Assembly (NCBI GenBank): GCA_009869945.1
Contig: WIXG01000299.1
Span: forward strand, 1 to 64,000
Origin: Mesaphorura yosii
Taxonomy: Eukaryota > Arthropoda > Collembola > Poduromorpha > Tullbergiidae
Direction of reading: 5' to 3'
Length of the DNA: 64,000 nt
Shown: positions 3,860 to 53,514 of the stretch, in pieces
Layout: the number at the start of each line of letters is the position of its first letter
How positions within the stretch are numbered: the first letter of the stretch is position 1
Notes under the pieces: generated by a model
What the model was told of the DNA's origin: nothing
Databases searched by the model: none
Seen by the model: only the letters and a program-made list of their open reading frames with translations
Translations under genes and position numbers: made by a program

Positions 3860-5171
3860 TTATTTCTTGAACGTGACTTGCACACACTTGAAAATGTAAA
3901 AGACGTACTTGAGTATGTTCAAATGCGTGACAGGGTGCAGACCCATCGGTCGAACGCTGAGGGGACGGAAGGCAGCCAGGACCCGGTCGACGTAGAGATT
4001 CCCACGCCGGTGGTGCGCTCGCAATGCCCTCACAAACGCCCGCATCTTTCTATGGAACTCTGCGAATGGGAGCCCACGCACGAAAATGCGCAGAATCAGC
4101 GCGATCAGGTTGGCTACGTAGAAGAGGGTCATGAAATGTCCCGCCGACGTGTTGACGATTGAGTGAATCATGAGCACGAGAAGAATGAAACTCAGGCCCT
4201 CTTCCACGAAAAGCACTCGACTGTTCAGATTCTGTAATTCCCGCGTCAGAATTTGAATCTGCTTATAATACTGAACGTGGAGATCTATGTATCCAATGCC
4301 AATGCCCTCTTCAGTCAGGACTTCCCTGAGCCTGCCTATCACCCTGTTCATGCTCATGAATACGGTGCATGAGACCAAGTCGAAGGCGATTATGGATCCC
4401 CAAGCGATGTAAAGCACGTACATTTCGATGGCGGCCAGAGTGAGACGCCAAACAAAGGCCGAAACCGAAGACAGACTGAAAGGCGGCCAGTCGGCCGTTG
4501 ATGGCGGTGACGGCAGCAACGAACTGAAAAACGCAGGAAAATACGGAAACCACCACGCCAAGACGAAAATCATCATCGGAGAGAGGACCCAAATTAGACC
4601 GTAGCATCCGCCAAGCGTAGAGAGGTACCTGAGCCTGCGTCGGGCCTGAGATTTGCTGGCTGGGAAATCTGTAGGCAAAAAGCCCTCGCCAGTTGAACCG
4701 TCTGTGATCGCCAGTTTCAAAAGTATTTTTAGTCTTCTTACCCTTTTCGAATTCAGCCTCGAAACGAATCCACCTCGTCAGCGTTGTCGCGGTCTCTGTC
4801 GGTTGAGTCCATGCATTAAGAAAGATTGTCAGTAACCAGCCTGCGCCCATGAGCCACATGGCCTGAATAATGTGGGCGTTTGTTATCGTATGAAACTGGA
4901 GCTGAAACCCGGTCGCGTAGTTGACGTAAAAGATCGTACATGTCTTGAGAAGATTGGCGGTGCAAACGCGGAAATTGAAATTGAAGAGGGCTACGGCGAA
5001 TGAGTGCGAAGAAGCGATGGACACTTTGCACGTGACGGGGTCGAAGGTGAAGGGCAAGATTCCGTTCAGGCGGGTGGCGTGAAAGAACAGCGTGTAGAAA
5101 GCGTGCGGGAGGTCAGTCATATCAGTTGGCCGCTCAGATTCAAGCTGGCTGACACGAGCAGGAGCTGACAA
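3860..5171 (-). CDS. Seven-transmembrane chemoreceptor-like protein (gustatory-receptor-like)
   Basis: Two exons, 4742-5171 and 3860-4701, encode 423 aa. The intron (4702-4741) is only 40 nt, GTAAGA...TCACAG, and joining the exons gives the continuous junction EFEKD|GSTGEG. The protein has many hydrophobic segments: IIQAMWLMGAGWLLTIFL; LIWVLSPMMIFVLAWWFPYF; LAAIEMYVLYIAWGSIIAF; LSFILLVLMIHSIVN; FYVANLIALILRIFV. Its length of about 420 aa and long intracellular loop (MNRVIGRLREVLTEEG...HVQYYKQIQILTRELQNLN) are typical of arthropod gustatory-receptor-type proteins, presumed ligand-gated channels of sensory neurons. The C-terminus ends KYVFYIFKCVQVTFKK rather than the usual insect TYLVVLxQF, so the family call rests on topology and length. 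A decayed copy lies immediately downstream at 1694-2830. An earlier in-frame ATG is not seen; the chosen start gives MSAPARVS. Confidence 0.65.
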
Positions 5172-23399: not shown

Positions 23400-26300
23400 A
23401 TGTCTGTAATGCAAAACAACATTTTCGTCCACGCCAACCCGCCAAAAGGTAAGAAACAACTTACCCGAGGCTGAGCCTTAAAGAAAATCCAAGATCTTAT
23501 TGATTTCATGATTCATCTTGCTTTTGTCTTTTGTTGTCAGCCGTTTCAGGCTCGGGCCTCAACATTCGCCAGTGGGTCAAGAATGGGGACGTGGACAAGC
23601 TGGAGGCATACGTACTCGAAGGACAGGGCGCTAGGCTGCTCGGGCTCGCCGAGGCGACGGGCGACAGTCGCGTCCGGAATTTTCTCCGCTCCGTTCCCGG
23701 GCTCATGGCGAAGGTCGACATGATTCACGACACAGTCATCCGCGGTTCGCTCCGGGAGACTCAGGCGCTGCTCGACAAGAAGAAACTGGCCACGGCTCGG
23801 GACGCCGTTGGCCGTGGGCTTCCACATAAGGCTGTGCTCTATAATAATAAGGCGGTTATCGAATGGCTGGGAAAGAAGTATCCGGAGACACTCAACCTCA
23901 GAGATAACGTAAGTCCAGTCCAGTTCAGTGAAGCGAAGTCAAAGACACCGAAACTTTGAAGCTTAATTGCCGTAATTTATGCATGCATGCGTCTTCGTCT
24001 TGGGTTTTATGACCCTCCATCACGGCATGAATTAATCAATACTTTCAATACGATTCTCGTCATGCCCTGCATTGCAGGAGGGTCGAACACCTCTGCACTA
24101 CTCGGCCGCAACGCGGGACGCCGAAGACATGTACAAGCTGCTCACCAACCTCGGCGCCTCGCCCGACATTCTCGACCTGCACGGCCACCGACCGATGTAC
24201 TACGTCGAGCACCCCGAGGAGCTGGACATCGAGGGTCCCAACACCATCGGCGCGGGTGCTGGCGTTGGCGGCGGCGCCAGCACTGGAGTGGCTGGCACGG
24301 GCAGCACGGGTCGATCCCTCTCGCGTGGGAAGCGACGCCGCATTTCACCCATCTCAAACTCACACTCACCCCGGAAATTTATCAGTAGGTGTATGTACTC
24401 ATTACTTTTACTTTTGCCTTTCGCTTTCCATGCATACGGGACACTGTTGACTATCTTTAACACTTAAATAAGTAAATAGCGACAACGACCAAAAGTATTC
24501 GAAATTCGCACACTCGCAGTTCACACATTCGTACGTAAATGTCAGCGGCCAATAAACTCTGGTCTGGCGTGAGTGTGATTGTCATTTTAGCCGGACAAAA
24601 CTCAAATTCGATCTTTGGTTTTCCTGGAGAGTTTCTGTTTCTGCTTACGTGCACTGCGAATAAGAAACGCAACGAATTTAAAATTTAGAGCCACGACGTG
24701 ACGTCTGTCGTGTTTACGTGTAGAAAGTTGCATTTTTACTTTTCTTCTTACTTAAGCTTTCACAAGATTACGTAAGAATGATGTCATGGGCAAGAACTCG
24801 ACTTCAAGAGTCCAGACCCTCCAGACTCCGAATCGCCAGGGTCAGACGAGTGTCCTTTATCCTTGGCGGAGCATCCTTGGCAAGGAAGTTTTGCGCCTTG
24901 GGTGTCTCTATTGTAGTCATTTTAATGAATTGGCTTTAAATTGCTGGAAAGGCCTTCGATATCAATTTTGTGTTTATGTTGGTTAAACGTTAAGCGTTAA
25001 ACGTTAAACGTGGTTGTGCAAGTAAACAGAGTCATGTAAGCGTACGTCCGTACGTACAAGCTACAAGGTTACCAGCCCATTGTATCAGAATCTTTTACTA
25101 CCCGCTCGTTTGTTGCGCAAATATGAATTGTCCACACGGGACATCGAAGAAGAAGGTCGGCCGGTCAGTCGAGCAGGCGAGGCGAGCTACTTCAAGGCCG
25201 TGTCTCGTTAGTCGTGTCGTGTCGCCCTCGTTTTGTTGTCGACAACTACGCACTTTAATTTCGCTTCGCAAAGGCAAAGCAAACAGCAAATTGCATGCGA
25301 CATGCGATTTGCGATTCCCCGATGGCCATTGCAATTGCGATTGCGACTGGGATTCTCAATTCGTTGATCATTAATCATGACTACGAATCTTGTTTTTTTA
25401 TGCCTGCCCTTTCCTGTCTACAGTTTCCCCCGTCGGCACGCTCGCCAACGGCCTCAACTCGATCTCCCACAACATCTCCTCGTACTTCTCGCAGCAGTCG
25501 TCACCCCCATCCGTCTCCCGCGCCCAGATCCGGATCTGGATTCACGAGAAGGACATCCCCAAGCTGGAGCGGATCGTTTGGTCGGGGAACGGAGAGAAAC
25601 TGCTGCTGGAGACAAGCAACAACAGCAGAGTCCGGAGGTTCCTGGACAATGTACCCCATCTCCTCTCCCGCATCAAGTCGGTGCACGCTGCGACCATCAA
25701 CAATGACGTCGAGTCGCTTAAAGTAAGCCAGGCCACGCCAAACCAAGTCTTTGTGATCTGTGGCCTACATTTTGAGCCTGAGCCGTAAATCGTAATTCGT
25801 ATTCGATTCGCAATTTGTAGTCACAAATGCGAAAAATCTCATTCAGAAAATAGTCGTAGACGACGACTTGTTGAATTATTCACATCGTCGTCCATCAATC
25901 ATTCGAGTCAGGTCGACCTACAGAACAGAAAACTTTGTAATGTCAATAAATCGATTTCCGGCCCCAAAACCAAAGCCAAGTCCGAGCAGTTCAAATTTCC
26001 ATTGTCCTCCTGGCCTGGCCTTTGCTAAGGTTCTTTGATAATGAGAAGGCTCAGTTTTCAGTCTTTTCGTTGTTTATCGTACCTGTAAATATTGGACAAC
26101 ATTCGCTTGCGACGTGCGCCTTGCCTGTTTCGTTAGCCAGTCGCTCATGTTTCGTGAATTTCGTGTTTAATCAATAACTCGGACGCGGACCCGAGTTTCA
26201 GGCTCGCATCGTATTTCGCATTTGCCAATTTCTGGTATCTGTTTTCCTGTTCCACGCAGAGGCCAGCCAATAATGACAATAATAATAGCCATTAAGCTAC

Positions 26301-29300
26301 TTACGTGCTCTGCATGTGAATCGCAAATTGCGAATTTCGTACGTATTATGTGGATCCGTCGATCGGAATTATCGACCCGAGCAGCCGAGCCAAGTAGCCA
26401 AAAGCCAAGTGAACCTATTGTTTGCTTGCCTTGTACTAAATATTTGATTAAGGCAAACGCAAATGCATGCAATAATCGCTCCCAATATGGCAATACGGCG
26501 ACGGCGTCTTATCGTGTCTATTGTCTGTATTTTAGGACATGAGGAGACGAACCGATGTTCTGGAAATCTTCAAGAGCCAAGACTCCCATGGACTCACACC
26601 ACTGCACAAAGTAAGCCTTTGTTTTTTATGTGACAATGCAATGCTCTGAACTTTTGCCCTCGTTATGTCAAGTAAGAGTCGTAAATCGTGAATCGTTCGC
26701 TATGGTATTGTTAAATCTAATGATCTTAATCTTAGTCTCAAATAAACCTGAATACTGAAGGAGAAGTAGTGAGAAGAAGAGTAATTGGCCAGGCCCATTT
26801 GCCATTTCAAATAAATTTCCTGATAATGGTGATAAAGATAAAGAATTACATGCAATTCCGTCGGCATCAGGTCAAATTCGTAGTCATATTGTCCCACCGC
26901 GCCGGCGCCAGCCGAATGCAAATAAATTGTTAATGTTAATGCTTTCTCTTCGTCTTCGCGTGATTTAGGCCGCTGGACTCTCCCACCGCCCGGTGCTCGA
27001 GTACCTCATCTACGAATTTCCGGACCTCATCAATGTCACCGACCGGGAGGGCCGTGGACCCCTGTACTACGCGGCCAGAGACCAGAATCTGTACCAGTTT
27101 CTGCTCAAAGCGGGCGCTGATGAGAGCGTGGTCGATTCGGTATGCTGCGAACACGGGAAAATGCAAACTTCCTGCAAATTACTTGAACTACTCCTAGACA
27201 GAGCCTCGTATTCTTGCTTTTCAGAGGGGCAAGACACCAGCGTACTACCGCACACATCCCAGCGAGCTGGACACGCGCTATCTGCGTCTCGTTCCCGACG
27301 CCCCGCGCGTGTCCGGTGATCTGCTGGGCTGGGACCGGGACGGAACAGCCGCGACAAACAGCACAGGAGGCCACAGCCATCACACGACAGCCAGCATCGG
27401 GGGCAAGCAGCGTGGGCGCGAGCAGCGGAGCAGCAGCGACGAGTTTTCGTTGAACGAAGAAGGAAACATGATCATCTCGGAGGCTACGGGCAAGTACGAC
27501 CTGGAAAATGTCGACGTCGAGATTCGGGAAGACGAACTGCGCGTCGACGATGGGGATGGCGGGGACGACAATTTCGAGATGGAAGAGGCAGAGATCGAGC
27601 GAAGCATGGGCATGGAGAAGAGAGTGAATGGCGTAACGACGCAGGCCGAGGCGCTGATGGCGGACGACGAAATGGAGCGGCCCGGGCAAAAGCAAAAGAC
27701 CAGCAAAACGAAATACCACGCGAGAACCGGATCAATTGCAGTCGCAGGCGCAGGCGCCGTCGTCGCCGGTGCTTCTTCGCTACAGAGTAACAAGTCATCG
27801 TCAAAATTACAGCCACGCGAAGAGCAGAGGCCTTGGCCGATGAACGAGACAGTCGAGATGGTCAACGAGGAAATCGAAGCCGAGGCAGACTCTGGCATGA
27901 GCAAAGCAATTACGAATGCGAACGCAAAATCAAACTCGAATGCTTCTTCTCAGCAGAAACAGAAGCAGGCAAACCAGAGTCAGGCTCAAGCCAAGCCTTC
28001 AGTCCAGAAACAGGCGATGGCGAGTCGAGGTGCGGGCAACAAAGTGCGAGTGAACGGAGAGGAGGTCGAGCCGGCACGAGAAGTGGAGCTCTACAACGAC
28101 ACGCCGTACCCGAACGCGAGCGGGAGCTTACACGAGCCATCGTATCGAGAGACGGTCGAGATACAGCGAGAATACGACGAAGGGGCGCTCATCTCCGATG
28201 AGCCGCCTCCGGAGCAGGAGTACCCCAGTCTCGGGCCCGATGCCGGCGCCGAAGACGACGACATTGAGACGGCGTTGAGGAATCGCGACATGGAAACCCT
28301 CGTCGAGAAGATTCTGCAGGGCGAAGGCGGCCTGCTCATGAACCGGAGTGCTCCACACCCCGACGTGCAAGAATTCCTCAACAACGTCCCTGCGTACATG
28401 ACGAAAATCAACGCGATCCACGTTGCAGCAGCGGCCGGAAGCCTCCGCGATCTGCAGACGCTCCTGGATCGAAAGCGGCTGGCTCTGGCGAGGGACGAGC
28501 AAGGTCGCGGCCCGCTGCATCAGGCAGTGCTCCACAATCATGTGAACGTGGCCAAGCATCTGGCCAGCACTTACCCACAAGTAGGTCGATAGTCGAGTGG
28601 TCAACTCTTTAATTAAGCTTAAGCTTAAATCAGAGTATTGGCTTTTGGCTTTTACCACGCGACACGTGGATAATTGAATCAATTATTTAATTGCTATGTT
28701 AGACCCTTCGGCTCCTGGATCACAATGGCCGCTCGGCTTTGCACTACGCGGCTACGCTGCCCGATTCGGGCCAGATGTACAAGTATCTCGTCAATTGGGG
28801 CGCGGATCCGAATGTGAAGGACGGGCTCAACAACACTCCGGGCGTTTACTTGCGGAATCGGGACCTGCTTTCGATCAAGGAGCTCCTAGGCACGAGCACG
28901 GAAGGTCGAGGGTCTGGGCAGGGCACGCGGTCGAAATCACAGACAAGCGATCGCCAGCAGCAGCGACAGGAGCAAGAAATGTCCAGCGGAGGCGCCGCCA
29001 GGCCAAATGGAAATGTCGGAGCTGGCGCGGGCCCGACTGAGCGTTGGGAGCGCCCGAAAACCCCCGACGGTAAGTCTTTGCTCTTTTTTCTCCCTGTTTG
29101 GCGGCTCCCTTACCCGGTTAAGGTCCAGTTCAGTAGTGAAAGTATCCAAAAGCAAAATCGTCTTCAGTTGCGGTGCTCAGCGCTCTCGACACGTTCTACG
29201 AGACGACCCTCATGCGAGAGGAGTCCTTCTGGACGCGAGCCTGGCGTAAACTGACCACCACCACACAGGGCAACGTGCAAGTCAAGCTTATGGCACGCAA

Positions 29301-30569
29301 ATACCTTCACCGGGCTCTTTTTGAGGATCTGAAGCGACGCGTGACCACGTCGGGCGCTACGCTGTTGGACGTCCTCAAGTTTTACCCGCAATTCTTCATC
29401 GTCGCCCCTGACCCCGAAGCCTACGACGTGTTTCGTCAGCTTTTTATTCCGACACTGGCCGATTTGAATCGGACGAGCGTCGGACTCGGCGGTGGAGTTG
29501 GAAGTTATGTTTTTGGAGACCACGACACGCGTAAGTTGGTTATTACGACACCTTCGTGTTGCATGCATTTATTGAGCAATTAGTAATTGTCCAATTAAAA
29601 ATTATTTATCAGCCACCCAGCTTCCGTTTTGCGAAATCCCGCCCGTCGATGTGCCAAGCAAGTACGTGTCGCTCGTGCGGGTCCGCCTGAGTCGAAACAT
29701 TGTGCCGTTCCCATTTTTGCCGTCAATGCGCCGCGAAGATATGAACAAAGTCAGCAATGCACTCAAGACTGTGAAGCTGAACTGGCCGTGCTTCGATCTC
29801 GAAGTGCTCGATAAAGAGACGAGGGCGAGTCTCGAGCCGATTTGCTGGCTGCCCGACGTAAGTTGATTGGCTCAAGCATTAATTAACAATTATTCTGTCA
29901 ATCGAGCATGTGATTCTGATTTCAGGTCAGCAAAGTCTCCCGCTACTGGCCAAAGGCTCGCTATTTTCTCCTCAGCCACGACAATTCCGTTCAAATCTGG
30001 ATCAACGCCGAAGATCATCTGGACATTATCGTCCAGTCCAAATACGGGAAGCTTTATCCGATGCTGGAGACTCTGAATGATGTGTACCTCCTTTATGCCA
30101 AAAAGTTTGCGTTCTACCGAAACGAAGACTTTGGGCACTTGACCGTCGATCCGCTGCACTGCGGAACGGGAGTGAAGGCAAGTCGAGTCGAGGCGGCGCC
30201 GGCTACAGCATTTAAAGAGGCGGGTAAAATTCGAAGCTGGCGCGTTAATTTAAACTATTTTTTTTACAGATTACCTTCCGGATTCGGCTCCCGACACTCA
30301 TGCAAGACCGCACCGACCTCACGACCCTCACAAACGAACTTAACCTCAACATTCGCTGGAAGCACAACCGAATCGCCAACTCGGCGACTCGCAACTTGGA
30401 GATTGCGCCCGACGACTGGGTCGAGATTGAGAACGTGGCAACGCTCGGCCTGAATGAGTTTGAACTCTGCGAGTCCATGTCGACAGCAATGAACCAACTC
30501 ATCGCGGCCGAGGCGGAGCGGGCCCGCATCGCTGCCATGATCGAAGCGGCCAACAAGAACAAGAAATGA
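23400..30569 (+). CDS. Ankyrin-repeat protein with C-terminal phosphagen-kinase-like domain
   Basis: Twelve exons: 23400-23448, 23541-23908, 24078-24384, 25424-25722, 26536-26610, 26969-27139, 27225-28580, 28703-29069, 29168-29530, 29613-29857, 29926-30177, 30270-30569. All phases agree; 1383 aa. Ankyrin modules appear three times, each pairing a helical lead-in (IRQWVKNGDVDKLEAYVL; RFLDNVPHLLSRIKSVHAA) with ankyrin repeats (GRTPLHYSAATRDAEDMYKL). Exon 7 adds a 250-residue charged linker. Exons 9-12 encode an arginine/creatine-kinase fold: N-domain KYLHRALFEDLKRR and LLDVLKFYP ... APDPEAYDVFRQLF; catalytic domain RYWPKARYFLL, WINAEDHLDII, and a tail GLNEFELCESM like GLTEYQAVREM. Several substrate or nucleotide Arg positions remain, but the catalytic Cys of the CPTNLGT loop is Asp (DPLHCGT) and Arg of TxRAS is Lys. 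It is probably a pseudokinase. Intron 11 is GC-AG. Introns of 0.8-1.0 kb (24385-25423, 25723-26535) show no other gene. Confidence 0.85.
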
Positions 30570-30800
30570 ATCGCCATCCGCCAAGCCAAGGCGACATTTG
30601 AGCTTTTTGAGTAGATTTTGCTTTTGGACACTTTTTGAACCAAAGAAGTCCAAGTCCAAGATCAAGTCGAAATTGTAGAAATTGAGAGATTCTTGAGATT
30701 TTTGAGTAGTTTCCTATTTCCTCGCTTCCACTCCGCAAACCACAAAACGAAAACTCGTCTGTGATTTTTAATACCTGACAATTGCCAACTCTCGTCGTAG

Positions 30801-32410
30801 ATGATCCGGGCGCGGGACTCGACCGACAGCAGCAGCGCTTCCCAGCTATCTGGTCCGAGGAGGGCAAGTATCTGGCCTCCGTGCTCGGGGACGCGCTCGT
30901 GAAAGGCCTGACGCAGGTCAGCCAGGAGCGCCCGACGGATCCGGTCGAGTACCTCGCCAATTTCCTTCGCAGCTACCGCGACGCCGAAGGGAGGCCGTTG
31001 CAAAAGGAGGCAATCGCCGCCGCCACGTCCGCCTCGCAAAGCATGCTCGAGGCGACGTCGATGGTCACGGCCGTCGGGGCGGCTGGCGCGGTGGGCACGG
31101 CGGCTGCTGCTGCGGTGCTCGCGAACGGCGGAATTCCCAGTGCTCGCCAGACGGCAACAAGCAACACGAGCCAGCGCCAGCGCCTACCACGTGAAAGTTA
31201 TGAGGAGCCGCCCGACACGGCCCCACCGCCCGCACACGTTGACGCCATAGCCATCGCAAGCAATACAAACAGCGGCACGGAGCAACGCGGCGGCGCCGGG
31301 CAAGGATTCCGTCGTCAATCGACGAGCAAATCGAATAATTCGCTCCCGCTTTCGACGCCCGACTCGGAAGATATGCTGCAAAAACTCGAAGACGAGGCCG
31401 ACGCTGAGGACAAGATCGAAGAGCAGCCGGAGCCCGAGCAGCCGAGCCCCACGCCGCAGATGCGGGACGACCACGGACAGAGCGTGTTGCATTTTGCTGC
31501 GTCGCGCCCAGGCGGAGCGCAGACGATTTACTCATTTCTGCAGAGCCCTAATGTAAATCTTGCATGGCGCGACGAGAATCTGAAGACGGCTCGCGACGTG
31601 GCTGCGCAAACTGGCCGCACGGAAAATCTGAAGATCATCGACTCGTTTGTGGTCGGGTTGGCCGTGCAAGGCGATGTCGAGTCACTCCAGCGACTGCTGC
31701 TCGACGGCTACGACCATCTTACGGGCATAGAAGACATGTCGCGTAACAAAATTCAGGACGCTGCGAGGAACCAGCCGGCCGTGCTCGACTTCTTGAACTC
31801 GATCGAAGTGTTCAGCGTGAAATTGCAGGCGCTGCACCACGCAGTGAGGATGGGCAGCCTGGATCAGGTCAAGAAATTCCTGAGTGAAGGTGAGTCCATC
31901 CCACACTTTAATTACTGCAGATTGCAAAATAATTAACTTCAAAATTCCCGCTGGCTGTTTGCTACATTTACTCGTCCTCACAGATCCACGTTTAGCTGCA
32001 GCCATCGGTTCTTCTGGCCGAACGTCGCTCCACGTCGCCGTTCTTGTCGAGGAGCACGCCGTCGTGCAGTACATCGCGAAGGAATTCCCGGAAACACTGA
32101 AGCGCGGCGATCACGTGAGTGCCAAGCGCCAGAGTCCCGTTGCTGTCATTCATTTAACTGACTTTCGACCTAACTCTCTCTTGCTTAATCCTTGATTTTT
32201 TGCATTGACATATGGCAGCTCGAGCGAATGCCGCTGCACTACGCGATGGGCGTCGAGAAGGTAGAGAAGATGACTCGGATCCTCGTCCGAGCCGGAGGCA
32301 AGCGCGTCGTAAAGGACATTCGAGGCCGGCAGCCAAGCTACTACTTTATTAACCGTGAGGAAATCGCCATTCTGCAGGAGCAGGAAGAACGCCTGAAGCA
32401 ACAACAGTGA
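30801..32410 (+). CDS. DPY-30 motif plus ankyrin repeats; probable alternative 3' end of the ankyrin gene
   Basis: Exons 30801-31889, 31984-32114 and 32219-32410 encode 470 codons with no ATG near the beginning: the frame opens directly after an acceptor (CGTCGTAG) in phase 1. Exon 8 of the preceding gene ends in phase 1 (29069), so splicing 29069 to 30801 gives ...PKTPDDDPGAGLD in frame and would yield a 1467-aa isoform lacking the kinase-like domain. Exon 9 also ends in phase 1. Residues encoded at 30851-30983 contain a DPY-30-type dimerisation helix pair (YLASVLGDALVKGL ... TDPVEYLANFLRSY). An acidic linker and a further ankyrin module follow (QSVLHFAASRPGGAQTIYSF; LHHAVRMGSLDQVKKFL; RTSLHVAVLVEEHAVVQYI; MPLHYAMGVEKVEKM). 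DPY-30/RIIa-like motifs dock proteins to axonemal or AKAP-type partners. A separate gene with an unseen first exon is the alternative. Confidence 0.7.
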
Positions 32411-32887: not shown

Positions 32888-34014
32888 TCACTTGACGAAC
32901 CGAATCGTATCTCTTTTGAACCTGACATTAATAATCACCGTGATGTACTCGCCAATCGCAAACACGGAGTACAGGTAGTTGATGCAAAAGTACTTGTGGA
33001 CAAGGTTCCCCGCGATCATAAACAGGATGAAAAAGAACTGGAGACCCAGGAGGAGTCCGATATGATTGTAATAGCCCGTCACCGCCTCGTCGAGCACAAT
33101 GCCCTTGGCCCGCTTCAGAAACCGCGTGCAGTACTGGAGCACCTCCGCCGTGAAAGTGAGCACGATGAAAATGTAGAAGAACAGCGAGTGGAATTCTGGG
33201 TCGCAGTCCAGCGAGAAGGCTGGAATCATGAGCAAAGCGATGATCTCCAGCACGTCGATTGCGTACGCGACCTTGAGCACGATGCAGTTGATCGTCGAGT
33301 TTTCGTACCAGACGAGGTACATTCTGTGCAGGAAGTGCGTGCTCAGAAGCCGAGCTACAAACACGATGGCCATCGCGATCGTCCAGATCCCCAGTCCGAT
33401 GCGGAAGGAACTCATGGATCGAGACAGCGACGGGAGCACGTTGAACGGATAGATGTACTCCGAGCTGGGGTTGTCCTTCTCCTGCTTCTGGTCGCAGTAC
33501 TCCCTCGTGGCCTTGGAGAAGTCGATGACCAGCGCCCAAATGACGCCGCACGTCATCGTGATCCAGATGATGATCTCCAACCATTTGAAGTACAGCTCAA
33601 AGTTGATTGTCACTGAAGAAGAGCAGAATACAGAGGGATAGTTCCAGTTAACAGCTGATTCAGTTCGCACGCGCCTTTGGCCGCCTTACCTTCGACCGAC
33701 GGCATTTCCCGTTGAAACTCCTGCAGCGAGATCCTCTCGTCGTCTCCCGGGAGCTCGTTTCCATTCTCCTCAAGCACAGTCTGAGTGTACGGCTCTTCTC
33801 CTTGCCCGGACCCGGATACCGCATTGGCCTCCGCCGCTGCTTTTTCACCTACGGGCTGGGTCCTCCGTCGACTGTAAGTTGTGGCAGAGCGCTGGAGTCT
33901 ACGTCCGGCTGCGGCAGCGCCTGGCTCACCTTCGCTTTCACCCTCTCCTTCTGCGTCTGCATTGGGGCTGTAGAACGAAGCTCGACTGTTGAGCGTATGT
34001 CGAAACATGACCAT
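32888..34014 (-). CDS. PGAP2/FRAG1-family membrane protein with long N-terminal extension
   Basis: Exons 33690-34014 and 32888-33612 (intron 77 nt, phase 1) encode 349 aa. Exon 2 carries about six transmembrane helices. Its pattern matches PGAP2/FRAG1: PFNVLPSLSRSMSSFRIGLG resembles the luminal NYLPSVS...RFCIGLH segment; AIDVLEIIALLMIP is followed by the conserved acidic/His patch CDPEFHSLFFYIFIVLTF; VHKYFCINYLYSVFAIGEY aligns with the terminal HNMYCEAGVYTIFAILEY. PGAP2 remodels the lipid of GPI anchors in the Golgi; DRAM/Sfk1 proteins share the fold, so the exact role is open. The first exon gives a 108-residue Ser/Glu/Arg-rich extension absent from typical PGAP2. The frame stays open upstream of the chosen ATG to an acceptor-like CACAG at 34157-34161 and would add a hydrophobic helix (GILLVVVSTIVIGMVMF), so the true N-terminus may be longer. 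Confidence 0.72.
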
Positions 34015-41544: not shown

Positions 41545-43000
41545 ATGAGATTTGTTCTGGTAAGATCCAATTCAAACATCTTTGACCATTATCACCATGG
41601 CCTGTGCCTGCCTTATTTGCGACTTCGACTCCGTATTTTCTTCGTTTCAGTACTTCCTCGCTTTCGCAGTCACCTCACAGCTTCACTTCACGCTGGTCAC
41701 TGCTGGAGGGAAGCAGCAGCAGATTCGGTGGAGCAAGTGGATGAAGAATAAAAAGGGAGGATGGAGTCGATGGAGTGACTGGATTGAAGGAAAGCCTCCG
41801 AAGGGTTGGTACAACGCCAATTCTGGTGGCGGCGGTGGCGGCGGTGGCGGAGGTGCAGGCGGTTGGGGTAGCGGTGGGAAAGGTGAATCTGGCGGCTGGG
41901 AAGACGGTGGCTCTTCTGGCGGTGGCGGCGGCGGATGGTCACAAGGAGGAGGCGGCGGCGGAGGACAAGGAGGCTACGGTGGCGGATCGGGATGGGGCAA
42001 CGAGGGAAACAATGAAGTGGGAGGCTGGGAGCAAGGCGGTGGCGGTGGTGCTGGCGGAGGAGGAGAAGGATGGGACCAAGGAGGCATCGATAACAGTGGT
42101 GGCTGGGAGCAGAAAGGAGGAGGTGGCAATTCAGGCGGAGGCGGTGGTTGGGGTTCCGACAACTCCGGAGGTTACGGCGGTGGCAGCGGAAGCGACGAAG
42201 GCTCGTCAGGCTGGGGTCAGGACAATTCGGCTGGTGGATTGGGACAGGGCATTTCCGAAGGTGGATACGGCGGCGGCGGCGGCTCTGGGTCGGGTTGGGG
42301 ACAAGAAAACTCCGGCGACGGTGGATGGGAACAAAAAGGCGGTGGTGGCAATTCCGGTGCGGGAGGATACGGAGGAGGTGGCAGCGGCGGATGGGACTCG
42401 GGCAGCTCTGCCGGCGGCAACGGTGGCGGATACAGTGGCGGTGGTGGTTCGAGCTCTAGCGGGTGGGAGCAGCAAGGAAAGGGAGGTGGAGGAGGCTCAG
42501 GCTGGGGTCAAGAAAGTTCCGGAGGATATGGTGGTGGAAGTTCCGGAGGCTACGGTGGTGGCGGAGGTGGATCCGGCTGGGGTCAAGAAAGTTCCGGAGG
42601 ACACGTTGGCGGAAGTTCTGGAGGCTACGGTGGTGGCGGAGGTGGATCCGGCTGGGGTCAAGAACAGTCTGGTGGATGGGAGCAGCAGGGCAAAGGCAGT
42701 TCTGGTTCTGGAGGGTATAGCGGCGGATCAGGCAGCTCCAGTGGCTGGCAGGCACCCACGCAAGCTGGTGCAGGAGGCTGGGAAACAGGCAAATCAGGAG
42801 GCGGTGGCGGATATTCATCAGGAGGTGGGGGTGGAGGCTACGACAGCAAAGGTGCAGGTGCAAGTGGATCGTCATCTGCATGGAAGCCGATCACCGGCGG
42901 ATCCAGCCACAGCCAGGCTCAAGGTTGGGGCTCCCAGCAGCAACCCGAGTCAGGCTATGGGGCCCCGAAGACAACTGCGAGCTCAGGCGGCTATGCATAG
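41545..43000 (+). CDS. Secreted glycine-rich repeat protein
   Basis: A 15-nt first exon (41545-41559, MRFVL) and a second exon (41651-43000) encode 454 aa. Joining them builds a signal peptide, MRFVLYFLAFAVTSQLHFTL, which is strong support for the tiny first exon. A short basic, Trp-rich segment follows (IRWSKWMKNKKGGWSRW). The rest is about half glycine, in irregular repeats of GGGGGWG, SGWGQESSGGYGGG, GGWEQKGGGG and similar, with regular Trp, Tyr, Gln and Ser. Such low-complexity extracellular proteins form cuticle, silk, glue or mucus layers. Which applies cannot be told. The long alternative frames over this exon on both strands are composition artefacts. Confidence 0.8.
42497..42646 (+). 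repeat. Two-copy 75-bp in-frame tandem repeat
   Basis: Units 42497-42571 and 42572-42646 are near identical, and a partial third unit begins at 42647. Each encodes 25 residues (SGWGQESSGGYGGGSSGGYG followed by GGGGG). The unit length is a multiple of three, so copy number can change without breaking the frame. Confidence 0.8.
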
Positions 43001-50646: not shown

Positions 50647-51417
50647 GAAGAATACGGTTGGTATTGGTCAAAGCATTTAAATGTAATTCACTGTCACTGT
50701 TGTATTTCCCTGTTATTTATTGGTTACGCTGACATACATAACCATCATTTTGCAATAAAAAGTTACATTCAGGGTTCTTTTGATAAAAAAACTTGAAAGA
50801 AGTCTGACGAACTCGAAAACGTATACAGTCGAAGTCAACGAATCTGAAACGAACTCATGGCATTTGTTACTTTTCCTTGCATGTTTTAAACGGAAAGAAG
50901 CTCACGTCGAACACGACAGTACACAGAAAAGCTCGCTTCCAATTACAACTTTTTTAATTCATTGATTTACAATCCCATGACCGGAGATACAAAATATAAT
51001 AATAATTATAGTAATTGAGTGCTTCAATTGCTTCCTTAATCAAATTAAAACTGCTAAGTCTCCAAGCTAATTTAAGGGTAAGACGTAAGACTAAATACTG
51101 GTTGAGATTCATATTTGATTCACAACTTAGTTTCACACTAATTAATTATGAATTTGGGGTTTTAATTTCACGCTTCTGGAATTTCTTTGGTCTCCGCTCT
51201 GCCACTCCAGTTGTGTCTTATTCCTGGTCAAGATGCACATGTCGACGTCACCATTTCACTGAACTTTTGACGACGTGTTCTGGTTGATCAGCTTCCTGTC
51301 TGGAGCATAAGAGGTATGATAAACTGATTGTAATTGTTAATTTATCATCGTGTCGCGTCGACACTCAGTTTCTGTATTCTTAATAGATACAAACTCCTGC
51401 ATATTCTCTTCGCAAAA
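50647..51417. other. Spacer, no gene
   Basis: AT-rich 3' UTR of MED6 and upstream region of CXXC1. No other gene is seen. Confidence 0.55.
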
Positions 51418-53514
51418 ATGTCCGGCTCCAAGAAAGACATCGCGAAGCAATTCGAACTCCCTGAGCGACAATCCAAGATCGCGTCTATCCTCAAGGAGTC
51501 TGAAGTGTACTGCATTTGCCGATCAACTGATTCGACTAGTTTCATGATAGCATGCGACAACTGCGAAGAATGGTTTCACGGACACTGCGTCAATATAAAC
51601 GAAGTGCAATCGAGGCAGGTTAAGCATTACTACTGCTCTCAATGCCGAAAGGAGAATCCGGGGCTGAAAATCGAGTACAAGAAACCCAAGGGCTCGAGTG
51701 CATCCCATGCCCCAGCTCACAAGGAGAAGGAAACGGTCAGGCAAGAACGAGAACCTCGTGAGCGCGACCCCGCAGCAGCAGCCAAGAGCGGAAGCAGTAC
51801 AAAAAGGGGTCCGGGACGCCCATGGAAGACGGCGGAGAAGAAAGCGGAGGTGGACCGAGACGACGAATACCAGCCTTACAGCAGCAGTCACAGCCACAGC
51901 AAAAGGCTGACACCCCGGAACGAAGTAGCAGAAGAGCCTCCGTTCGTTCCACCGCCACCTCGCTCAACTCGCCGGGGTCGACCGTCCAAAGATGATGCCG
52001 GGTTCGGTGCGGAGCTGAAAGGGCTCAGACAGTGCTATCAGCCAAAATGCAGAAAAGCTGCGCGCCCCAGCTCGAAGTACTGCAGCGACGAGTGTGGGCT
52101 CATTCTTGCTGCCACCCGCATGCAGCTCATTCTGCCGTCGCGTATTCAAGAATGGTCAGTGAAATCCGTCGCCGAAGAACACAACGACCGCGATCTGACC
52201 GAAATCAAGCGGAAATACGACGCCACGTACCAAATGATCAAAGACCTGCAGCTGAAGCGCGATAAACTCGACGAGCACATTGCAAAAGTGGAGAGGCTGC
52301 AATACGACCCCGAGCACGAAGAGGAGGAGGACGAAGAAGAGGGCACCGTGACATGCGTGAGTTGTGGGCGTGACGTACCGAGTCGAGACTCAGTCAAGCA
52401 CATGGAAAAGTGCTACCACAAATACGAGAGTCAGATGTCTTTCGGCTCAAAGTTTGCGACGAGCGTCGAAGGCACACCGATCTTCTGCGACTTCTTCAAC
52501 CAACAAAACAAGACTTACTGTAAGCGGCTGCGAGTGCTCTGCAACGAGCACACGAAGGAGCCAAAAATCAGCGATACGGCCATTTGTGGATGTCCAGCCG
52601 ACAACGAAGTCAAGCCTGGCGGCCGATTCTGCCGAAATCTCAAGAAAATTTGCAGTAAACACTTCAGTTGGGAGAAACTGCGGCGTGGCGAGATTGACCA
52701 AGAGCGGGTGCGACAGTTTATGAAGATTGACGACCTGCTCGAGCAAGAACGTGTCGCCCTGCAATCGAAGCAGGATCGAGGCGGTGTCATGGGTCTTCTG
52801 CTCAACTCGACATACGACCACGAGCTGGATGCAAAGATGGCGGCAGAGGTCGAGGAACACAAACGCCAGAAGCAGGAGTACGAGGAACAAATGCGGCAGC
52901 GAGAAGAGAACGCGAGAAGAGTGCGTCAGGAGCAGGAGGCTGCGGCGGCCGCGCGGATGCGATACGAGCAGGAAATGATAAGAAGACGGGCGTTCGAAAT
53001 GGAACGGGCAAAGGAAGCGCATCTCAAGCGAGAGGAGATGAAAATGAGACAGCAGATGCTCGATGCCCGGAAGGCGGCGGAGATGCACGCGAGCGCGGGC
53101 TCCAGTCAAAAACCGACGACGGCAACTTCAGCGTCAGCAGCAGGGAAATCAGTGAGCAGGCAACTCGTCGCGGCTGTTGCTGATAAGAAGAATGTCAACT
53201 ACTCCTCATCGAGTGCGTCTGGCGGCTCGAGATCAGGCTCGTTCTCTGGCTCTGGCTCCGGCTCAGACAGCGGAAGCGGAGCGGCCAGCACCGAATCGGG
53301 CTCGGAGGACGAGCGGCCGATGGAAGTTGACGACGCAGACGAAGACGCGCGTGCAGGCTCCGACACTCCTCCAGCAAAAGACGAGGATCGTCCATGGCAA
53401 GACTCCTTCGTCCACCTGCCGTCGAAGAGGGAAAAGACGCGCAGGTCTTTTGATAGCGGCGACGGTGGCGGAGGGGCAGGCGAAATGACAGCGTCAAGAT
53501 TGAGCAAGAAGTAA
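51418..53514 (+). CDS. CXXC1: CXXC1/CFP1 homologue lacking the CXXC finger
   Basis: One uninterrupted exon encodes 698 aa. A PHD finger spans about residues 31-76 (YCICRSTD, MIACDNCEEWFHGHCV, YYCSQC), the reader of H3K4 methylation. The C-terminal CFP1 core is complete: CRKAARPSSKYCSDECGLIL, ILPSRIQEW, VTCVSCGRDVP ... MEKCYHKYESQMSFGS, IFCDFFNQQNKTYCKRL, VLCNEHTKEPK, CGCPAD, HFSWEKLRRGEID. This part tethers SET1/COMPASS. The canonical CXXC zinc finger (CGxCxxCxxxxDCGxCxxC) expected between PHD and core is absent. In its place are two AT-hook-like motifs, KRGPGRPWK (about 129-137) and TRRGRPSK (about 184-191). A charged coiled coil and a Ser/acidic tail close the protein. AATAAA at 53561. The start is the ATG directly before MSGSKKDIAK. 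Confidence 0.93.
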   Translation: MSGSKKDIAKQFELPERQSKIASILKESEVYCICRSTDSTSFMIACDNCEEWFHGHCVNINEVQSRQVKHYYCSQCRKENPGLKIEYKKPKGSSASHAPAHKEKETVRQEREPRERDPAAAAKSGSSTKRGPGRPWKTAEKKAEVDRDDEYQPYSSSHSHSKRLTPRNEVAEEPPFVPPPPRSTRRGRPSKDDAGFGAELKGLRQCYQPKCRKAARPSSKYCSDECGLILAATRMQLILPSRIQEWSVKSVAEEHNDRDLTEIKRKYDATYQMIKDLQLKRDKLDEHIAKVERLQYDPEHEEEEDEEEGTVTCVSCGRDVPSRDSVKHMEKCYHKYESQMSFGSKFATSVEGTPIFCDFFNQQNKTYCKRLRVLCNEHTKEPKISDTAICGCPADNEVKPGGRFCRNLKKICSKHFSWEKLRRGEIDQERVRQFMKIDDLLEQERVALQSKQDRGGVMGLLLNSTYDHELDAKMAAEVEEHKRQKQEYEEQMRQREENARRVRQEQEAAAAARMRYEQEMIRRRAFEMERAKEAHLKREEMKMRQQMLDARKAAEMHASAGSSQKPTTATSASAAGKSVSRQLVAAVADKKNVNYSSSSASGGSRSGSFSGSGSGSDSGSGAASTESGSEDERPMEVDDADEDARAGSDTPPAKDEDRPWQDSFVHLPSKREKTRRSFDSGDGGGGAGEMTASRLSKK

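Follow-up and report, generated by a model that had tools for sequence, protein, structure and literature searches.

An ankyrin/Dpy-30 gene of the collembolan Mesaphorura yosii with a putative alternative tail derived from a phosphagen kinase

Phosphagen kinases are textbook metabolic enzymes. In the collembolan Mesaphorura yosii, four exons encoding a phosphagen-kinase fold with a largely dismantled active site lie within an ankyrin gene on the + strand of contig WIXG01000299.1 (C299). The window, that is the whole stretch of DNA analysed here, comprises bases 1-64,000 of this contig; the assembly amounts to 93 Mb in 1127 contigs. The explanation we consider best, at a probability of roughly 60%, is that the gene (23400-32410) specifies a modular ankyrin scaffold with alternative tails, that exons 9-12 are a terminal cassette carrying a dead kinase, and that the products are likely ciliary or axonemal. 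Judged from sequence, a non-enzymatic module seems to have been made out of what was once an energy-buffering enzyme.

The fold itself is the firmest part of this reading. Exons 9-12 (29168-30569) are present, open and in phase, as an earlier note on the window had stated, and encode a domain of 386 amino acids with both halves of the guanido-kinase architecture. Pfam and PDB searches were run with a 384-residue version of the domain; the alignments, genome search, tree and prokaryotic search used the 386-residue version. The N-terminal domain, located in exon 9 (29168-29530), matches PF02807 with 37.5 bits (E 3.3e-9; curated cut-off 25.7). The catalytic-domain fold begins in exon 10 (29613-29857), continues through exon 11 (29926-30177) and ends in exon 12 (30270-30569, stop codon TGA); it matches PF00217 with 93.4 bits (E 1.6e-26; curated cut-off 22.4) over model positions 5-202 of 203. 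Thus, both profile comparisons proposed in the earlier note gave significant matches. In the PDB, 49 distinct sequences were matched at E ≤ 0.001. The double-domain arginine kinase 4rf6 ranks first (2.1e-35, from two stretches with 62.9 and 60.2 bits taken together), and the best single-domain match is the arginine kinase 7re6 (102.6 bits, 1.7e-28). The taurocyamine kinase 4wo8 reaches 1.4e-25 (two stretches), the best creatine kinase 3.9e-13 and the best protein-arginine kinase 35 bits (5.9e-8). Of 330 columns aligned with the arginine kinase of the same genome, 102 are identical (31%); a second alignment gives 28%. These comparisons support the assignment of exons 9-12 to the phosphagen-kinase fold and exclude chance as an explanation of the match.

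Upstream, the gene starts at 23400. Exons 1-7 (23400-23448, 23541-23908, 24078-24384, 25424-25722, 26536-26610, 26969-27139 and 27225-28580), delimited by spliced translation and module alignment, encode all of the ankyrin modules M1 and M2, the greater part of M3 and a long acidic, low-complexity linker, and exon 8 (28703-29069) completes M3; Pfam Ank_2 matches exons 1-8 with an E-value of 5.6e-30. The account in the earlier note stops at the kinase exons. It did not include exons 13-15 (30801-32410), which encode a Dpy-30 motif (PF05186, 3.2e-11) and a fourth copy of the ankyrin module. Exon 13 (30801-31889, phase 1) carries the Dpy-30 motif at 30860-30976, a linker and the start of module M4, which is continued by exon 14 (31984-32114) and ends, before a stop codon, in exon 15 (32219-32410). 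All six pairwise comparisons among M1-M4 are significant (E 4e-15 to 2e-39), with 6e-25 for M1 and M4 and 5.6e-24 for M3 and M4, and M1 and M4 have in common an intron at the identical place in phase 0. As M1-M4 are homologous and the intron is shared by M1 and M4, exons 13-15 belong to the ankyrin gene, which thus continues beyond the kinase exons. The latter lie between M3 and M4, and their reading frame closes with a stop codon.

Both exon 9 and exon 13 require a phase-1 donor, and exon 8 ends in a strong one (ACG/GTAAGT, score 10.2 on a donor matrix whose weights are approximate). Neither exon 9 nor exon 13 has an in-frame ATG between its acceptor and the preceding stop, and the intervals 29070-29211 and 30570-30800 lack an ATG altogether. 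The 14 codons of exon 9 that precede its first methionine have a coding score of 13.3 bits, a value reached by 0 of 5000 intron windows, compared with −6.3 and −2.9 bits for the same stretch in the other two frames. On the other side of the acceptor, 9 codons give −4.7 bits, which is not coding-like. Coding-like codons before this methionine and non-coding ones before the acceptor make it more likely that exon 9 is spliced to exon 8 than that a nested gene starts at Met 29212, with exons 9-12 as a standalone pseudo-arginine kinase housed in an ankyrin/Dpy-30 gene, in the intron that separates exons 8 and 13. A nested gene of this kind is doubtful, yet it has a plausible length: 25 residues would precede the KYL block (LMARKYL) versus 24 before LLKKYL in the organism's own arginine kinase, and all Pfam and PDB matches begin 3′ of Met 29212. 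It would also have to start translation at a codon with C at position −3 and to fit its promoter and leader into the 142 bases between exon 8 and the methionine, unless these extend into exon 8. Taken together, the coding character of the codons before the methionine and the lack of an ATG in 29070-29211 support, indirectly, a fusion of the kinase exons to the ankyrin exons. The in-phase joins, which the earlier note took as proof of the fusion, do exist. As proof they are too strong a claim, since exon 13 joins exon 8 in phase as well.

For the same reason, a kinase-like domain at the C terminus of a 1383-residue protein is one of two readings of the locus, exons 13-15 competing for the same donor. 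Judging by sequence, the kinase exons seem to form one of two C-terminal cassettes that are used as alternatives. A different arrangement would be a single long transcript with exons 1-12 encoding the main product and exons 13-15 either spliced on as 3′ untranslated sequence or translated from another start. The distribution of poly(A) signals speaks in its favour, as no scanned hexamer occurs between the end of exon 12 and 30830 and two AATAAA sequences follow exon 15 (32808 and 32813). We regard it as unlikely. Donor scoring, limited here to GT sites, gave no value over 0.1 within exon 12 and none over 1.5 across 30570-30800, and exon 13 is coding-like from its acceptor onwards (56.1 bits over 80 codons; exon 12 scores 61.9 bits over 99 codons). 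Moreover, the first in-frame methionine of exon 13 (31043) lies 3′ of the Dpy-30 motif, so that this exon would be translated from an upstream exon.

The state of the active site was judged from an alignment with eight reference domains, namely the organism's own arginine kinase, 2j1q (whose numbering is used), 9fho, 7re6, the two domains of 4wo8 and the two of 4rf6. We scored 18 positions (63, 64, 65, 68, 122, 124, 126, 185, 225, 229, 271, 274, 280, 284, 309, 314, 315 and 330). Only four ligand or catalytic positions are kept: R124 and R126 in exon 10, E225 within the NAEDH motif of exon 11, and R309 in exon 12. Changed are S122 and H185 (exon 10), R229, C271, N274 and R280, H284, R330 and the E314/H315 pair. 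Among the scored positions invariant across all eight references, 4 of 13 are retained, compared with 36 of 89 for all invariant columns (Fisher p 0.55), hence residues of the active site have fared no better than those elsewhere in the fold.

Most of the scored positions, 64 and 315 being exceptions, are named in the available text of PMC11075012 and PMC12467219, which allows the losses to be read by function. The guanidino clamp consists of E225, C271 and E314 (PMC11075012). E225 is present, the Cys of the CPTNLGT loop is replaced by Asp (codon 30148-30150), and neither alignment places a Glu at position 314, an assignment that is uncertain because about 8 residues are inserted in the surrounding loop. 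Half of the phosphate-binding Arg set R124, R126, R229, R280, R309 and R330 (PMC11075012 and PMC12467219) is kept; the others have become Asp (R229), Lys (R280) and Thr (R330). None of the three nucleotide-ring contacts S122, H185 and H284 (PMC12467219) remains, and with them the adenine contacts are gone. Around the transferred phosphoryl and guanidinium groups, nine residues are described (R124, R126, E225, R229, C271, N274, R309, E314 and R330; PMC11075012), and R124, R126, E225 and R309 are those still found here. In exon 9, the specificity loop is shortened by 5 residues with loss of S63, G64 and Y68, and 7 residues of DDHFLFKEGDRFL are missing from the kinase-like domain. The Cys-to-Asp and Arg-to-Lys exchanges were correctly described in the earlier note, which also spoke of a rewritten loop at the clamping Glu. 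By itself, the Cys-to-Asp exchange is no proof of a dead enzyme, since a paper cited in PMC11075012 speaks in its title of 'partially active' C271 mutants of arginine kinase. With 4 of 18 active-site positions kept, however, the sequence strongly supports the view, also taken in the earlier note, that the domain is very probably catalytically dead.

A phosphagen kinase that is still active with altered specificity, or a McsB-like protein-arginine kinase, would be consistent with the retention of E225, R124, R126 and R309 and with the protein-arginine kinases among the PDB matches. This is very unlikely given the number of exchanged residues, which include C271, N274, R229, R280, R330, all three ring contacts and the E314/H315 pair. 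The single-domain match to arginine kinase is far stronger than that to protein-arginine kinase, and the 13 core positions are invariant in reference domains that include a taurocyamine kinase, which argues against a mere shift in specificity. Hardly credible, finally, is a decaying pseudogene cassette without a protein role. Such decay would agree with the very long branch, the lost active-site residues and the weak coding score in exon 10, but four pairs of splice sites are intact and both Pfam cut-offs are passed after about 70% residue divergence. The absence of any stop in 386 codons despite a branch of 2.27 substitutions per site indicates that the kinase-like domain has been kept as protein.

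Our preferred explanation, a scaffold with alternative tails, can be outlined as follows. One gene would give rise to a scaffold of four ankyrin modules of about 170 amino acids each, modules 3 and 4 being separated by a Dpy-30 motif for dimerisation or docking. Exons 9-12, which encode an entire guanido-kinase fold whose active site is destroyed, would act as an alternative terminal cassette in place of the Dpy-30 motif and module 4. Exon 8 is predicted to be spliced either to exon 9, yielding 1383 amino acids with a pseudokinase tail, or to exon 13, yielding 1467 amino acids with a Dpy-30 tail; alternative tails thus predict two junctions from one donor. The choice of tail would set what the ankyrin scaffold attaches to. 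The Dpy-30 form might dock onto amphipathic helices of the kind present in RSP3, pointing to the cilium or the sperm axoneme. In support of this, RSP3 matches are present on three contigs of the genome (C31, C6 and C158); Dpy-30 matches number seven, counting exon 13. The pseudokinase tail is likely a protein-binding surface and would be neither an enzyme nor a metabolite sensor. Of the roles proposed in the earlier note, sensing of phosphagen metabolism is disfavoured since the nucleotide and guanidino contacts are for the most part lost, while anchoring or protein binding is possible.

Several observations weigh against this explanation. Exon 12 would be a terminal exon without an obvious end, as none of eleven poly(A) hexamers is found in 30570-30830 and only AATGAA occurs at 30565, at the stop codon. 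Exon 10 (10.0 bits over 80 codons) and the rest of exon 9 (20.6 bits over 106 codons) have low coding scores next to exons 12 and 13. Three phosphate-binding arginines remain in addition to E225, so weak ligand binding is possible. The ciliary or sperm-flagellum location, which we consider likely, is based on one motif and one precedent. A more far-reaching version is tentative: the non-catalytic phosphagen-kinase module as alternative tail of a ciliary or sperm ankyrin/Dpy-30 scaffold, possibly pairing with active arginine kinase for placement in the axoneme, would be the first pseudo-phosphagen kinase, the choice of tail switching the cargo of the scaffold. We would call this conceivable, no more.

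A search of the genome with the kinase-like domain returned the ankyrin locus, the ordinary arginine kinase on contig C638 (2450-4338) and a single match on C269 that is no better than chance (E 0.1). The best PDB matches of the ordinary enzyme are arginine kinases and a taurocyamine kinase; it has a pancrustacean look and a one-residue insertion in its N domain (KTSRFGSTL) relative to the reference kinases, inside modelled exon 1. Two further pieces, on C206 (approx. 3892-4268), were picked up with PF00217; they form a partial arginine-kinase-like locus without a PF02807 match at E ≤ 0.001, one loop of which reads CPSNLDTT versus CPSNLGTT or CPTNLGTT in other kinases. This locus is perhaps a paralogue that has diverged, or else a copy in decay. 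No second gene comparable to the ankyrin gene was found in the genome with the ankyrin modules, the best place outside the gene reaching E 1.4e-5, and among 22 pattern matches of the domain in prokaryotic genomes none was confirmed. In the tree, none of three constrained positions was rejected (AU test, p 0.132 as sister to the organism's own kinase, 0.289 outside four arginine kinases, 0.617 with them). No COX1 match was found in the assembly, so the mitochondrial genome is seemingly not part of it.

As for splicing, the 1383-residue ankyrin-kinase model of the earlier note was reproduced. It requires a GC-AG intron after exon 11, whose donor (AAG/GCAAGT, 30177) scores 5.8 and yields an ungapped fit to the TTIRAS strand. 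A GT alternative 6 bases upstream (30171) scores 1.1 and gives a protein of 1381 amino acids, two residues short of the fit to the kinases. For exon 3, the donor at 24388 has a higher matrix score than the one used at 24384 (4.5 vs 2.9) but breaks the frame. Tail to tail with exon 15 lies a frame for a FRAG1/DRAM-type membrane protein (9.3e-11; 32888-33685, − strand). On the + strand, an open frame of 478 codons (41564-43000) encodes a Gly/Ser/Trp-rich low-complexity and possibly secreted structural protein, and a CpG-binding-protein-like frame (51334-53514; CpG_bind_C 8.2e-81, PHD finger), which we take to be CXXC1/CFP1, is found about 19 kb from the Dpy-30 exon; this neighbourhood does not imply a link.

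The guanido-kinase family and the single parts of this protein are known. No such fusion, and no phosphagen kinase retained as a catalytically dead module, came up in the literature searched for the fusion, for pseudokinases of the guanido-kinase family and for the ankyrin/Dpy-30 combination. The available text of PMC3289662, for instance, lists an ankyrin repeat protein and arginine kinase separately. The architecture may nevertheless sit unremarked in animal protein databases. If our explanation is true, phosphagen kinases join the families with pseudoenzyme members, and a handle on the tethering of energy-buffering enzymes is gained.

Compared with arginine kinases (PF02807 plus PF00217; PDB 2j1q, 7re6 and 9fho), the domain shares both halves, 28-32% identity, E225, R124, R126, R309, W221 and the NxEDH motif. 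In contrast to them, it has 14 of 18 active-site positions changed, a shortened specificity loop, a part of DDHFLFKEGDRFL missing and the E314 loop replaced, and it stands behind ankyrin modules. Similar in domain makeup is ARCP-1 of C. elegans, an ankyrin and DPY-30 protein that serves as a dendritic and ciliary scaffold, binding PDE-1 and bringing it to sensory cilia; the available text of PMC6953435 mentions no guanido-kinase domain in it. Ankyrin repeats and DPY-30 occur in one protein there, and here in one gene model through the predicted splice from exon 8 to exon 13. ARCP-1 has two transcripts that overlap at the 3′ end, whereas the 3′ ends would differ in the present gene. Radial-spoke DPY-30 proteins of the RSP2 type share the DPY-30 motif. 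Such proteins are bound by the amphipathic helix AH-D of RSP3, and adenylate kinases, which are linked to radial spokes, are reduced in Tetrahymena radial-spoke mutants (PMC12399478). They differ in that the word ankyrin is absent from the main text of this source, and its available text names no guanido-kinase fold on them. Two arginine kinases are abundant in Culex sperm (PMC9934393). The flagellar arginine kinase AK3 of Trypanosoma brucei has an N-terminal insertion and is described in the available text of PMC4517888 as an arginine kinase, not as an ankyrin fusion with a lost active site. Its likeness to the gene described here lies in an added N-terminal stretch, which in AK3 directs the kinase to a defined place.

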